A stretch of 64,000 bases of DNA, from contig JASBUN010000036.1 of assembly GCA_030147845.1 (NCBI GenBank), positions 1 through 64,000 of the forward strand, read 5' to 3'. The notes below the pieces were generated by a model. That model did no database searches. It saw only the letters and a list, made by a program, of their open reading frames with translations, and was not told the origin of the DNA. The DNA is from Gammaproteobacteria bacterium (GTDB taxonomy: Bacteria > Pseudomonadota > Gammaproteobacteria > JASBUN01). Shown here piece after piece: positions 58,149 to 61,991 of this stretch (its first letter is position 1; each line of letters starts with the position of its first letter). Position numbers and translations under genes: made by a program.

Positions 58149-59957
58149 TCACGGTGCACTGCGACGATCGACGAACAGACTGTTGCCTGGCTGTTTTTTG
58201 GCTTCGCGTTTGGCCTCGCTGGCCATGGCCGCCACTTCGTTATGCGAATGACAGCGCTGCGCGTCCGGCAGCACCACGCCGATCGACAAACTCAGGATCG
58301 GGAAGAACATGCGCGCGCCGCTGCGGTCGCTCGACCATATACCCTGCTGCAGGCGATCGGTCGGCTCGTACATCAGCGCGATCTCGGCCGCGAACTGATC
58401 GAGCATAGCTTGACAGCGTGCACGCCAGTCGGCGCTGCGAAACACCAAAATAAAGTCGTCGCCGCCCAGGTGACCGACGAAATCGAGCTTGGCGTCGCTA
58501 TGTTGCACAAGAATGGCGGCCACGCGCTGCAACACATCATCGCCCTTGCCATAGCCGTAGACGTCATTAAATGGCTTGAAATGGTCGAGATCGCAATAGG
58601 CGACGGCAAACTCGCAACGCTCGGCCAACAGCCGATCAAGAATCTCATAGATCGGCACGTTGCCGGGCAGTAAGGTCAGCGGATTGGCGTAACGCGCATT
58701 ACGGATTTGCAAGTCGGTAATTTTCTTCAGCAGATCAACGACGCGGCCGATGCCGAGATACGCGCCCTTGGCGGTGATGATGAAATTGTCCTCGACCCGT
58801 GTGCGCATGTCCTCGGTCAATACCTGACTCACCTCCTCCACCAACATGTCCTGCTCGACCAAAACCGGCTCTGCATCCATGAGCTTGGATATCGGCTTGC
58901 GGTCGTGCAAGGAATGCCCGTACGGCGATGCATAGACGTCCATCAGCCGATGGCGCCGTACCAAACCGATCGGCGTGCCGGCGTCGTCCAGCACCGCTAC
59001 CGACGACAATACCAATGTCGCCGAGAACAACTCGACGACCTCGGCCACCTGGGTCGCCGGTGAAACCGTGGGGGCCTGGCGCAACAAGCTGCCGACGGTT
59101 TCAGACAAGCGCACTGGCCGTCGAATCTGGCGTCGGACGCCATCGCAGGAGAACAGTTCGGCGTCCAATTGACGCTCCGGCAACGGCTGCGGACGGGCAA
59201 AGTAATAACCCTGGCCGCTGGTGATGCCCAGAGCGCAAACGGTATGATATTCATCACGCGTTTCGATACCTTCCGCCACCACCTGGCAGTCCAGGCCGTG
59301 GGCGATGTTGAGAATCGAACGTACGAATTCCTGCTTGACGCGATCGTCGTGGATGCCTTGGATGAAATGGCGGTCGATTTTGACGTAGTCGGGCCGCAAT
59401 TCCGACCACATGCGCAGGCCGGCATAGCCGGCGCCGAGATCATCAATAGCAACTTGAAAGCCGAGTCGGCTGTACTCCCGCGTCGCCCAACGCACGGCCT
59501 CGTAATCATCGACCGGAAATTGCTCGGTCATCTCCAAGACGATGTCATCCGGACGCAGTCCGGCCTGCACCACCAGATCAAGCATTTGCTGTGGTCGCGA
59601 ACCCGGCTGCAGAACACTGGCCGGATTGGTATTGAGGAATAGCTTTCCCGGCAGGCGCAAGCGTCGAAACTGCGCAATCGACAACGCTCGGCAGGTCTGT
59701 TCGAGCTGCGTCAGGCGCCCACTGCGCAGCGCCATATCGAATAACGGCAACGGGCTGTGCAAAGGGCTATCGGAGGGCCCGCGAATCAACGCCTCAAAGC
59801 CAAGGATGGTATGTTCGGCAAGATTAACGATCGGCTGGTAGAGCGTCTGCAGCGCGCCGGAATCGAGGATGTGGAGAAATTCATCCAAGAGGGTGCCAGC
59901 GCGTTCGTCGCGCGCAGCCACCGACGCGACGGCAATACTTTCGTCGAGGTGACGCAT
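58149..59957 (-). CDS. EAL-CBS-GGDEF c-di-GMP signalling protein
   Basis: I use ATG 59957, which AAGGAGCAGC precedes; this gives 602 residues. The N-terminal EAL domain (about 25-270) keeps all the metal and base residues: FEALIRG, LNTNPAS, VLEMTE, IDDLGAG, VKID, AEGIET and QGYYFARP. The central region (about 290-420) is a CBS-pair. The C-terminal GGDEF domain (about 430-600) has GGDDF instead of GGDEF and lacks the RxxD inhibition site (AKLD). The EAL half should hydrolyse c-di-GMP. Whether the GGDDF half is a cyclase or a GTP-sensing domain is open. No transmembrane helix is evident. Confidence 0.92.
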   Translation of the reverse strand: MRHLDESIAVASVAARDERAGTLLDEFLHILDSGALQTLYQPIVNLAEHTILGFEALIRGPSDSPLHSPLPLFDMALRSGRLTQLEQTCRALSIAQFRRLRLPGKLFLNTNPASVLQPGSRPQQMLDLVVQAGLRPDDIVLEMTEQFPVDDYEAVRWATREYSRLGFQVAIDDLGAGYAGLRMWSELRPDYVKIDRHFIQGIHDDRVKQEFVRSILNIAHGLDCQVVAEGIETRDEYHTVCALGITSGQGYYFARPQPLPERQLDAELFSCDGVRRQIRRPVRLSETVGSLLRQAPTVSPATQVAEVVELFSATLVLSSVAVLDDAGTPIGLVRRHRLMDVYASPYGHSLHDRKPISKLMDAEPVLVEQDMLVEEVSQVLTEDMRTRVEDNFIITAKGAYLGIGRVVDLLKKITDLQIRNARYANPLTLLPGNVPIYEILDRLLAERCEFAVAYCDLDHFKPFNDVYGYGKGDDVLQRVAAILVQHSDAKLDFVGHLGGDDFILVFRSADWRARCQAMLDQFAAEIALMYEPTDRLQQGIWSSDRSGARMFFPILSLSIGVVLPDAQRCHSHNEVAAMASEAKREAKKQPGNSLFVDRRSAP

Positions 59958-60239
59958 GCTGCTCCTTTCCAAGAAAGAGGCGACGGGGGGAGGATCGACT
60001 CTAGCGCCCAACTATGACAGTGTGATGACCGCGGGCCCGCGGGCCGAACGCGCGTGCCAGGTGCGATACCGTCGCTGCACACCAACGGCGCCGCCCGAGG
60101 ATTTTTCAACAACCTGTTAACTCGCTGGAGTTGCGCTTGGCTGTCGAATCCGGGTTACGATATCGAACTTTAGATGGCATGCCGTGCCAACTGACCAATC
60201 GCGCACGAATAGGCGACTACACAGGAGTCGTTTCCTCCG
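59958..60239. other. Divergent intergenic region with a stop-motif copy
   Basis: About 280 bases separate the EAL-CBS-GGDEF gene from the GNAT-HDAC gene. It holds TAACAGGTTGTTGAAAAAT (minus strand, 60119-60101), the same motif seen at three gene stops in this window. A 93-codon minus frame ends at this TAA but overlaps the start of the fusion gene and has no recognisable domain, so I do not call it. Confidence 0.4.
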
Positions 60240-61991
60240 ATGATGTTCAGAATTCGCAAAGTCCTCGATAACACATGCGACGCCAACCGTGGCGCAATCG
60301 ACCAGGTGACAACGATCCTCGGCAAGCAGTTCCCGTTGGCGCGCAAGGAGGAGTTCCAAAAACTCGCTCAGCAACTGCACGATCCGCTCAAGTACCAATA
60401 TCGTTCCATACTGTTTGTGGCGGAAAACGGCGCCGGCAAGGTCAAAGGCTTTGCCATGCTGCTACACTTTCCCGATATTGGTATCGCTTACCTCGAACTA
60501 ATTTCCGCGGCACCCGGTATAACCGGCCGCGGCATCGGCAGCGCCCTGTATGAACACGTGCGCGCCGAATGTCTGTTACTAAAAGTAAAAGGCCTGTTTT
60601 TTGAGTGCGCTATTGATGATCGTGAAATAATTCGTGACGCAGCCGTATTAAAGCAGAACATTGCTCGACTGAAATTCTACGAACGCTACGGCGTTTACCC
60701 CATCATCAACAACGTTTATGCATCGCCGGTGACATCGGGCGATCAAGATCTATATTACCTGATGCTGGATGACCTCGGACTGAAGCAACCAATCAACTCG
60801 GCTCTGGCACAGAAAATCGTTCGCGCGATCCTGGTTCGCAAGTACGGCGATCTGATACCGACGAAACAGATCGAAGAAGTGGTACTTTCGTTCACCGACA
60901 ACCCGCTGCGCCTTCGCTCTCCTCAATACGTAAAGAAGGTAGCGGCCGACACATACCCGCGCAAGAACGCCACAAACATCGTTCTGGTGGTAAATGAAGG
61001 GCACAATATTCACCATGTCAAAGATCGTGGTTACGTCGAAGCCCCGGTGCGCCTGTCGACCATCCTTGCCGCACTGGATAAAGCGCAAATATTCAAACGC
61101 ATCGAACCGAAACGGGTCAGTGAGTCACTGATCAAAAGAGTGCATTTGCCGGCCTATGTCGATTATTTGCGACGCGCGTGCGCTCAACTGGAGCCCGGCA
61201 AGTCCATCTACCCGCTCATATTCCCGCAGCGCAACCTGTCACGGCCGCCAAAAGATATCGAACTTCAAGTCGGCTACTACTGCCTGGATACCTTCACTCC
61301 GCTGAACCGCAACGCCTATCTCGCTGCCCGCGGCGCCGTCGATTGCGCGGTCACGGCTGCCAACGCTGTTCTGGATGGTGCGCCGATCGCCTACGCCTTG
61401 GTGCGACCGCCGGGTCACCATGCTGAACGCCGCGCTTTCGGCGGATTCTGTTACTTCAACTCGGCGGCGATAGCCGCGCAACATTTAAGCCGCTTTGGCA
61501 GGATAGCCATTCTGGATATCGACTTTCATCACGGCAACGGTACTCAGGATATCTTCTACGAACGTAGCGACGTTTTGACGATTTCGATTCATGGCGATCC
61601 ACGTTTCGCCTACCCGAACTTTGCCGGTTTCAAGGATGAAGCCGGCAGCGGCGAAGGAGCGGGCTACAACATCAACTACCCGTTACCCGAAAAAATCAGC
61701 GCGGACCGATACCTGCGCACGCTGGCTACCGCATTAAAGCGCATCAAAACATATGATCCAGCCTACCTGGTCCTCTGTTTGGGGCTCGACACGGCGAAGT
61801 CAGACCCGACCGGCACTTGGAATCATACCTTTGAAGATTTTCATAGGATCGGAGAAATGATTGGTAAGCAGAAATATCCGACTATCGTCGTGCAGGAGGG
61901 CGGTTATCGTACGCAGACGCTGGGCACCAACGTCCGGCATTTTTTTCAGGGCTTATGGGCTGGATACTTCGGTCAGGACAACTCGCAATAA
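60240..61991 (+). CDS. GNAT acetyltransferase fused to a histone-deacetylase-family amidohydrolase
   Basis: This 583-residue protein has two catalytic modules. Residues about 1-175 form a GNAT domain with the acetyl-CoA loop ITGRGIGSAL (94-103), followed by an IARLKFYERYGV helix. Residues about 180-240 link it to a histone deacetylase/acetylpolyamine amidohydrolase fold (about 245-575). The catalytic residues are all present: PGHHAERRAFGGFCYFN (His393, His394), zinc ligands LDIDFHHGNG (Asp428, His430) and LGLDTAKSD (Asp517), with EGGYRT (Tyr556). GYYCLDTFTPLNRNAY resembles acetylpolyamine deacetylases. One chain could thus both add and remove acetyl groups. The substrate may be a polyamine or protein lysine. 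It stands alone. Confidence 0.9.
   Translation: MMFRIRKVLDNTCDANRGAIDQVTTILGKQFPLARKEEFQKLAQQLHDPLKYQYRSILFVAENGAGKVKGFAMLLHFPDIGIAYLELISAAPGITGRGIGSALYEHVRAECLLLKVKGLFFECAIDDREIIRDAAVLKQNIARLKFYERYGVYPIINNVYASPVTSGDQDLYYLMLDDLGLKQPINSALAQKIVRAILVRKYGDLIPTKQIEEVVLSFTDNPLRLRSPQYVKKVAADTYPRKNATNIVLVVNEGHNIHHVKDRGYVEAPVRLSTILAALDKAQIFKRIEPKRVSESLIKRVHLPAYVDYLRRACAQLEPGKSIYPLIFPQRNLSRPPKDIELQVGYYCLDTFTPLNRNAYLAARGAVDCAVTAANAVLDGAPIAYALVRPPGHHAERRAFGGFCYFNSAAIAAQHLSRFGRIAILDIDFHHGNGTQDIFYERSDVLTISIHGDPRFAYPNFAGFKDEAGSGEGAGYNINYPLPEKISADRYLRTLATALKRIKTYDPAYLVLCLGLDTAKSDPTGTWNHTFEDFHRIGEMIGKQKYPTIVVQEGGYRTQTLGTNVRHFFQGLWAGYFGQDNSQ

Follow-up and report, generated by a model that had tools for sequence, protein, structure and literature searches.

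A conserved bacterial fusion of a GNAT acetyltransferase and an HDAC-fold deacetylase, with a possible role in acetyl turnover on a lysine-type molecule

Enzymes that write and erase acetyl groups are normally separate proteins and are regulated apart. Bacillus subtilis encodes an opposing pair of this kind in its acu operon, the GNAT acetyltransferase AcuA and the HDAC-type zinc deacetylase AcuC. For bacterial deacetylases of the HDAC fold, a survey of bacterial deacylases (PMC11532494) associates the motifs RPPGHH and EGGY with the removal of acetyl rather than long-acyl groups. It treats a PIS motif at the gatekeeper position as the mark of bacterial polyamine deacetylases (cluster 4), and an acidic L2-loop residue (E106 in Mycoplana APAH), a head-to-head dimer and a salt bridge across the dimer, R95–D163, as further criteria for these enzymes. 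GNAT-HDAC fusions are not mentioned in the consulted passages of the survey. A search of the open-access literature returned no description of such fusions, nor of a lysine 2,3-aminomutase (KamA) together with ATP-grasp or Ddl ligases. The two domains described here are of known kinds; their conserved fusion, its signature residues and the operon that accompanies it in some relatives are apparently undescribed.

The window, a 64,000-nucleotide stretch of a gammaproteobacterial contig (JASBUN010000036.1), carries the fusion gene at positions 60240–61991 (+). The gene is a single uninterrupted open reading frame of 583 amino acids; on the reverse strand, the same interval contains many stops. 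The alignment of homologues to the GNAT-HDAC fusion starts at Met2 (60243), and an AGGAG at 60223–60227 (+), 12 nt upstream of the ATG, is a plausible ribosome-binding site. The first-pass annotation of this DNA had described an acetyltransferase and a deacetylase in one protein, which is borne out by the reading frame, Pfam, AlphaFold2 and homologues. The motifs it named lie where it had placed them: ITGRGIGSAL at residues 94–103, PGHH at 391–394, DFHH at 428–431, Asp517 and Tyr556. An EAL-CBS-GGDEF signalling protein is encoded divergently at 58149–60011 (−), and GGDEF-type genes also lie near the fusion at two other loci (L022 and L023).

The protein, all features of which are encoded on the forward (+) strand, begins with a GNAT acetyltransferase domain (residues 2–178; 60243–60773), delimited by Pfam, the AlphaFold2 model and Foldseek. 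A helical linker follows (residues 179–245; 60774–60974), which by domain-wise identity is the fastest-evolving part and whose C-terminal end is disordered in the model. The remainder is a zinc deacetylase domain of the HDAC fold and the acetylpolyamine-amidohydrolase (APAH) type, as judged by Pfam and structure matches (residues 246–583; 60975–61988). In Pfam, the first half matched GNAT family PF00583 (residues 24–126, 4.6e-8, exceeding its gathering score) and PF13508 (residues 56–151, above the curated cut-off), and the second half PF00850 (HDAC; residues 266–571, 1.4e-77, above the curated cut-off).

AlphaFold2, run with an alignment of relatives, predicted residues 1–248 alone with a pLDDT of 91.4 and a pTM of 0.86, and the full chain with values of 84.0 and 0.72; the weak spots of the full-chain model are residues 236–243, 260–269 and 395–399. 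Foldseek matched the GNAT half to Gcn5-type GNATs (TMt 0.76; Gcn5 5trm, E = 1.5e-8), with SpeG among the fold matches, and the deacetylase half to acetylpolyamine amidohydrolase (TMt 0.85, ~38% identity). Structural modelling, which had been proposed as a check on the fusion, thus yielded two folded domains that match solved enzymes, and the loss of the GNAT acetyl-CoA pocket, named beforehand as a possible objection, was not seen in the model. The best matches of the HDAC half were all APAHs and AcuC was not the closest; a fusion of AcuA with AcuC is not supported by this placement.

The active site of the GNAT half is well preserved. Its acetyl-CoA loop, ITGRGIGSAL (60519–60548), was identified from the sequence and the alignment of fusions, in which Gly98 is present in 84 of 84 proteins and Gly100 in 83. 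The classic Q/R-x-x-G-x-G motif begins with Thr in the window protein and, for the majority of relatives, with Thr or Arg. By reference to the GNAT mechanism, Glu86 (60495–60497) is a candidate general base; of 83 assessable fusions, 55 have Asp and 27 Glu at the aligned position, 82 acidic residues in all. Likewise, Tyr147 of an FYE motif (60678–60680), kept in 83/84 fusions, is a candidate general acid. Residue 122 is Glu in 80/84 fusions and Asp in the other four. When the GNAT half was compared with NCBIfam, it matched no family at E 0.01, AblB included. A degenerate GNAT half is ruled out by the fold, the conserved residues and the evolutionary rate.

The catalytic set of the deacetylase half was located by alignment. 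RPPGHH (residues 389–394; 61404–61421), invariant in the fusions, provides the catalytic tandem histidines H393 and H394. DFHH (61521–61532) contributes the zinc ligands D428 and H430, Asp517 (61788–61790) is the third zinc ligand, and EGGY (residues 553–556; 61896–61907) holds the catalytic Tyr556. All six of these residues are present in every assessable fusion. The L1 loop additionally carries a family signature, HxxHH (residues 255–259; 61002–61016), whose histidines are found in 83 (H255), 84 (H258) and 83 (H259) of the 84 fusions; the signature is rare or absent in HDAC-only relatives. In the L2 loop, Arg331 (61230–61232) aligns with R95 of PsApaH and is present in 84/84 fusions.

The same fusion is encoded at 84 non-redundant loci in about 12 phyla, most of them in metagenome-assembled genomes. 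A search for relatives recovered full-length homologues with 66, 57, 53 and 39% identity, and a scan of genome contigs, which retained the 80 best-ranking out of 330 candidates and so gives counts for a sample, added about 70 further fusions with 40–78% identity. The hosts include anammox planctomycetes, Nitrospirota, Bacteroidota and gammaproteobacteria. The phylum count sets aside loci labelled Campylobacterota and Lentisphaerota, which are nested among gammaproteobacteria in the tree and probably represent mis-binned contigs or transfer. In one locus (L060:8004–9766), the fusion is split by a frame change into two overlapping reading frames that share 73 and 79% identity with the query; this is either a pseudogene or an assembly error.

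The HDAC halves of the fusions form one clade (support 100/98), which indicates that the fusion arose once; a single fusion event followed by wide spread would be the simplest reading of the tree. Two HDAC-only proteins from Patescibacteria are the sister group and the solved APAHs come next, the fusion clade sitting outside the clade of solved APAHs (98/87). No adjacent GNAT-domain gene or operon partner was detected with our reference set beside these HDAC-only sisters (L089 and L093). When 369 gammaproteobacterial genomes were searched with a profile of the GNAT half, 18 proved to carry fused copies; no standalone or split GNAT half was found, apart from a remote 296-aa match in G149, whose neighbourhood (L135) holds none of the partner genes described below. 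With both domains found together at all these loci, the homologue search that the first-pass annotation had called for removes its concern that the fusion might be a local artefact, and a chance fusion is ruled out by the number of homologous loci and their single clade.

To compare the constraint on the two halves, amino-acid identity by domain was used in place of dN/dS, which was unusable because synonymous sites are saturated or nearly so. Between the window protein and L139, the GNAT and HDAC cores are 82 and 83% identical and the linker 57%; the corresponding values are 77, 82 and 55% for L021, and 73, 72 and 49% for L022. Drift would be expected in a half that had lost its function, and the GNAT and HDAC cores are equally constrained. 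The retention of catalytic residues and the equal, constrained rate suggest that both activities are probably used. We consider it very probable that the fusion is genuine and that both halves are catalytic, in line with the earlier proposal of two complete, opposite enzymes in one chain, which the folds, the catalytic residues in homologues and the equal constraint support.

The gene neighbourhood offers a lead to the substrate. At 22 of the 84 fusion loci, KamA, one or two Ddl-like ATP-grasp ligases, or a small second GNAT are encoded nearby, mostly on the same strand as the fusion and often with 4-nt overlaps. The fullest set, tetR-kamA-fusion-ddl1-ddl2-gnat, with frequent 4-nt overlaps, occurs in planctomycetes and partly in a kiritimatiellote and others; the order kamA-ddl1-ddl2-fusion(-gnat) is found in the gammaproteobacteria G014, G367, G084 and G155. 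The first-pass annotation had noted that the gene stands alone. This is true in the window, where no polyamine genes are adjacent, but it missed the operon present in about a quarter of the homologues. The two branches that part at the base of the fusion tree each include operon members, which makes the linkage an old one; lineages like that of the window have probably lost it.

Several partners are themselves joined to other domains. The small GNAT forms a third domain of the GNAT-HDAC protein in G014, G367 and L081, giving GNAT-HDAC-GNAT chains of ~751–760 aa (L111:6802–9057, L138:5101–7356 and L081:7968–10250) whose third domain is the GNAT encoded separately in other operons. At two loci, the Ddl-like ATP-grasp ligase shares its chain with a SAM methyltransferase (L083:5645–7579 and L112:5174–7120), and the gene adjoins that of the GNAT-HDAC protein in divergent orientation.

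The operon-type KamA proteins, where assessable, all keep D293, D330, K337 and R134 of the lysine 2,3-aminomutase 2a5h. D293 and D330 are the aspartates that bind the lysine side-chain amine in the clostridial enzyme. Operon KamA scores 512.7 bits with the AblA model, close to its cut-off of 525.4. A KamA-like aminomutase downstream of the fusion at another locus (L058:3535–5142) has His and Asn at the lysine-specifying positions 293 and 330, and its substrate is therefore probably different.

The association is not obligatory. Sets of kamA-ddl1, some with ddl2 and a small GNAT, occur without the fusion (L147–L154) in genomes of another class of the window's phylum, and look like a simpler form of an undescribed beta-lysine ligase pathway. 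Together with solitary fusions that lack a lysine-type KamA, they show that the two are separable both ways. None of the HDAC-only loci with long flanks contains the operon set; L097 has only a remote homologue of KamA (27%), and the Ddl-like gene at L094 belongs to a different type.

At 62 of the 84 loci, the window's included, the fusion has no KamA, Ddl or GNAT partners nearby. Among 109 immediate neighbours counted, no Pfam family recurs in the flanks of these solitary fusions. In the genome of the window and the other solitary gammaproteobacteria searched, a lysine-type KamA is absent and only EpmB-like proteins were found; beta-lysine can therefore not be assumed in this lineage. MscS-type channel genes adjoin solitary fusions on the same strand in several cases (L036:7125–7931, L042:9936–11807, L070:4200–7865 and L140:5992–6834). 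A link to osmotic stress through MscS or Trk neighbours was considered on this account and set aside, as the MscS beta-domain occurs in only 2 of the 109 neighbours, with no clear winner among the families.

Other neighbours recur more locally. A glutaminase gene lies directly upstream of the fusion, on the same strand, in three Nitrospirota (L078:6999–7970, L079:7037–7957 and L080:6944–7732). In gammaproteobacteria, circularly permuted ATP-grasp, alpha-E and zinc-peptidase-like genes, another amide-ligase gene set, are found at or near the fusion (L028:9817–13228, L034:370–2773, L112:9921–13324 and L140:2–1548), with the trio not complete at each locus. Elsewhere in the window's genome (L109:8263–10367), a Ddl-like ATP-grasp gene overlaps a zinc-peptidase-like gene by 4 nt, and the same pair occurs in G033 (L110).

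The reading we favour, with a probability of roughly 45%, is that the two halves turn over an acetyl group on an amine of a small lysine-type molecule. The GNAT domain would transfer acetyl from acetyl-CoA onto a primary amine, and the zinc domain would hydrolyse the same kind of N-acetyl group. In operon-bearing relatives the substrate may be beta-lysine or a beta-lysyl peptide; in solitary fusions, including that of the window, it may be lysine or a related amine. One chain would thus make and recycle the acetylated form, at a level set by the acetyl-CoA supply, comparable to the production and turnover of acetylated lysines and N-acetylglutaminylglutamine amide (NAGGN) as solutes. The old linkage to a lysine-specific KamA, Ddl-like ligases and a GNAT points in this direction, and the invariant L1-loop histidines and the lost polyamine-reading residues would fit a substrate that bears a carboxylate. 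Against it stand the 62 loci without partners, the kamA-ddl sets without the fusion and the lack of an NCBIfam match for the GNAT half. A more far-reaching version is a widespread, undescribed pathway in which KamA, Ddl-like ligases and GNATs produce a (transiently) acetylated beta-lysine peptide, with the fusion installing and removing the acetyl group; we put this forward tentatively, as somewhat unlikely.

A target protein is an alternative that we judge unlikely: a single chain would write and erase acetyl-lysine on that protein, as AcuA and AcuC do on acetyl-CoA synthetase. The protein acetyltransferases Gcn5/PCAF head the Foldseek matches of the GNAT half, and Gcn5 as the best structural match would fit a protein substrate equally. 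PMC11532494 also indicates that bacterial APAH-type enzymes are able to deacetylate AcsA. However, the HDAC half is closest to the small-molecule APAH group and not to AcuC, and no protein partner gene is conserved, the conserved partners being small-molecule enzymes.

In arginine biosynthesis, an acetyl group is added and later removed. By analogy, the GNAT half could acetylate one amine of a lysine-type building block, leaving the Ddl-like ligases to join the other end before the HDAC half deacetylates the product. Such protection would explain why opposite activities share a chain, and why their operon also encodes a pair of ligases and an aminomutase that makes a compound with two amino groups. 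We nonetheless regard it, too, as unlikely: kamA-ddl1-ddl2(-gnat) sets occur without the fusion, and most fusions have no ligases nearby.

The first-pass annotation had leaned towards polyamines, and the GNAT half could indeed acetylate spermidine, putrescine or cadaverine for the HDAC half to deacetylate. The nearest solved structures are acetylpolyamine amidohydrolases, which share RPPGHH and EGGY with the fusion, SpeG is among the GNAT fold matches, and Glu341 in the L2 loop aligns with E106 of Mycoplana APAH. Glutamate at this last position, where PsApaH has His, is found in a minority of fusions and is common only in solitary ones (26/62). The residue aligned with the polyamine contact E117 of Mycoplana APAH is Phe352 in the window protein (61293–61295) and F, G, C or M among the fusions listed, never Glu. 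At the gatekeeper position, DPTG (residues 522–525; 61803–61814) replaces the DPIS of bacterial polyamine deacetylases; PTG occurs in 82/83 assessable fusions, and the Asp position of the R95–D163 dimer salt bridge is Arg or Lys in 67/84 (signatures from PMC11532494). No polyamine genes recur near the homologues. With the polyamine-reading residues mostly replaced, polyamines are not favoured as the substrate, and a polyamine cycle appears distinctly improbable. Basic and hydrophobic residues in place of acidic ones point to a substrate with less positive charge than a polyamine, which may bear a carboxylate.

Very unlikely, finally, is a sensor design, in which the GNAT domain binds acetyl-CoA chiefly to control the deacetylase and has little or no transferase activity. 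Motif A and the general-acid Tyr could be of use for binding as well, and one chain would couple the acetyl-CoA level to deacetylation, but almost all homologues retain the candidate catalytic residues 86, 122 and 147, and constraint on the GNAT core equals that on the HDAC core.

A conserved fusion with both sites intact raises the question of why both activities share one chain. If the more far-reaching pathway proposed above is correct, the fusion would be the first known to combine a GNAT with a deacetylase of the HDAC fold for switching the acetylation of a single small metabolite on and off. The operon marks a candidate undescribed metabolite route built from a lysine aminomutase, ligases and acetyltransferases, and an annotation as histone deacetylase or acetylpolyamine hydrolase may hide a different function.

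Among known systems, GNAT-nitrilase fusions, apparently encoded near L028 and L043, also combine an acetyltransferase with an amide-cleaving hydrolase in one chain, but their hydrolase fold is unrelated to that of the fusion described here. In NAGGN synthesis, a GNAT/ATP-grasp fusion makes an acetylated dipeptide solute; GNAT and ATP-grasp are shared with the operon, whereas Ddl-like ligases, KamA and an HDAC are not part of it. The N-epsilon-acetyl-beta-lysine pathway (AblA/AblB) resembles the operon in pairing a lysine 2,3-aminomutase with a GNAT, but it contains neither an HDAC nor ligases, and the GNAT half of the fusion has no AblB match. AcuA and AcuC, like the fusion, are an acetyltransferase and a zinc deacetylase of opposite activity; they are separate proteins that act on the protein AcsA, and the HDAC half of the fusion is APAH-like rather than AcuC-like. 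The bacterial APAHs (msAPAH, 6phr; Mycoplana ramosa APAH, 3q9b; PsApaH, 9gkz) have the fold, zinc ligands, tandem His, catalytic Tyr, RPPGHH, EGGY and L2-loop Arg in common with the fusion, at about 38% identity in the structure matches. The fusion differs from them in its GNAT domain, in PTG for PIS, in the replaced equivalents of E117 and D163, in the HxxHH of the L1 loop, and in forming a separate sister clade.
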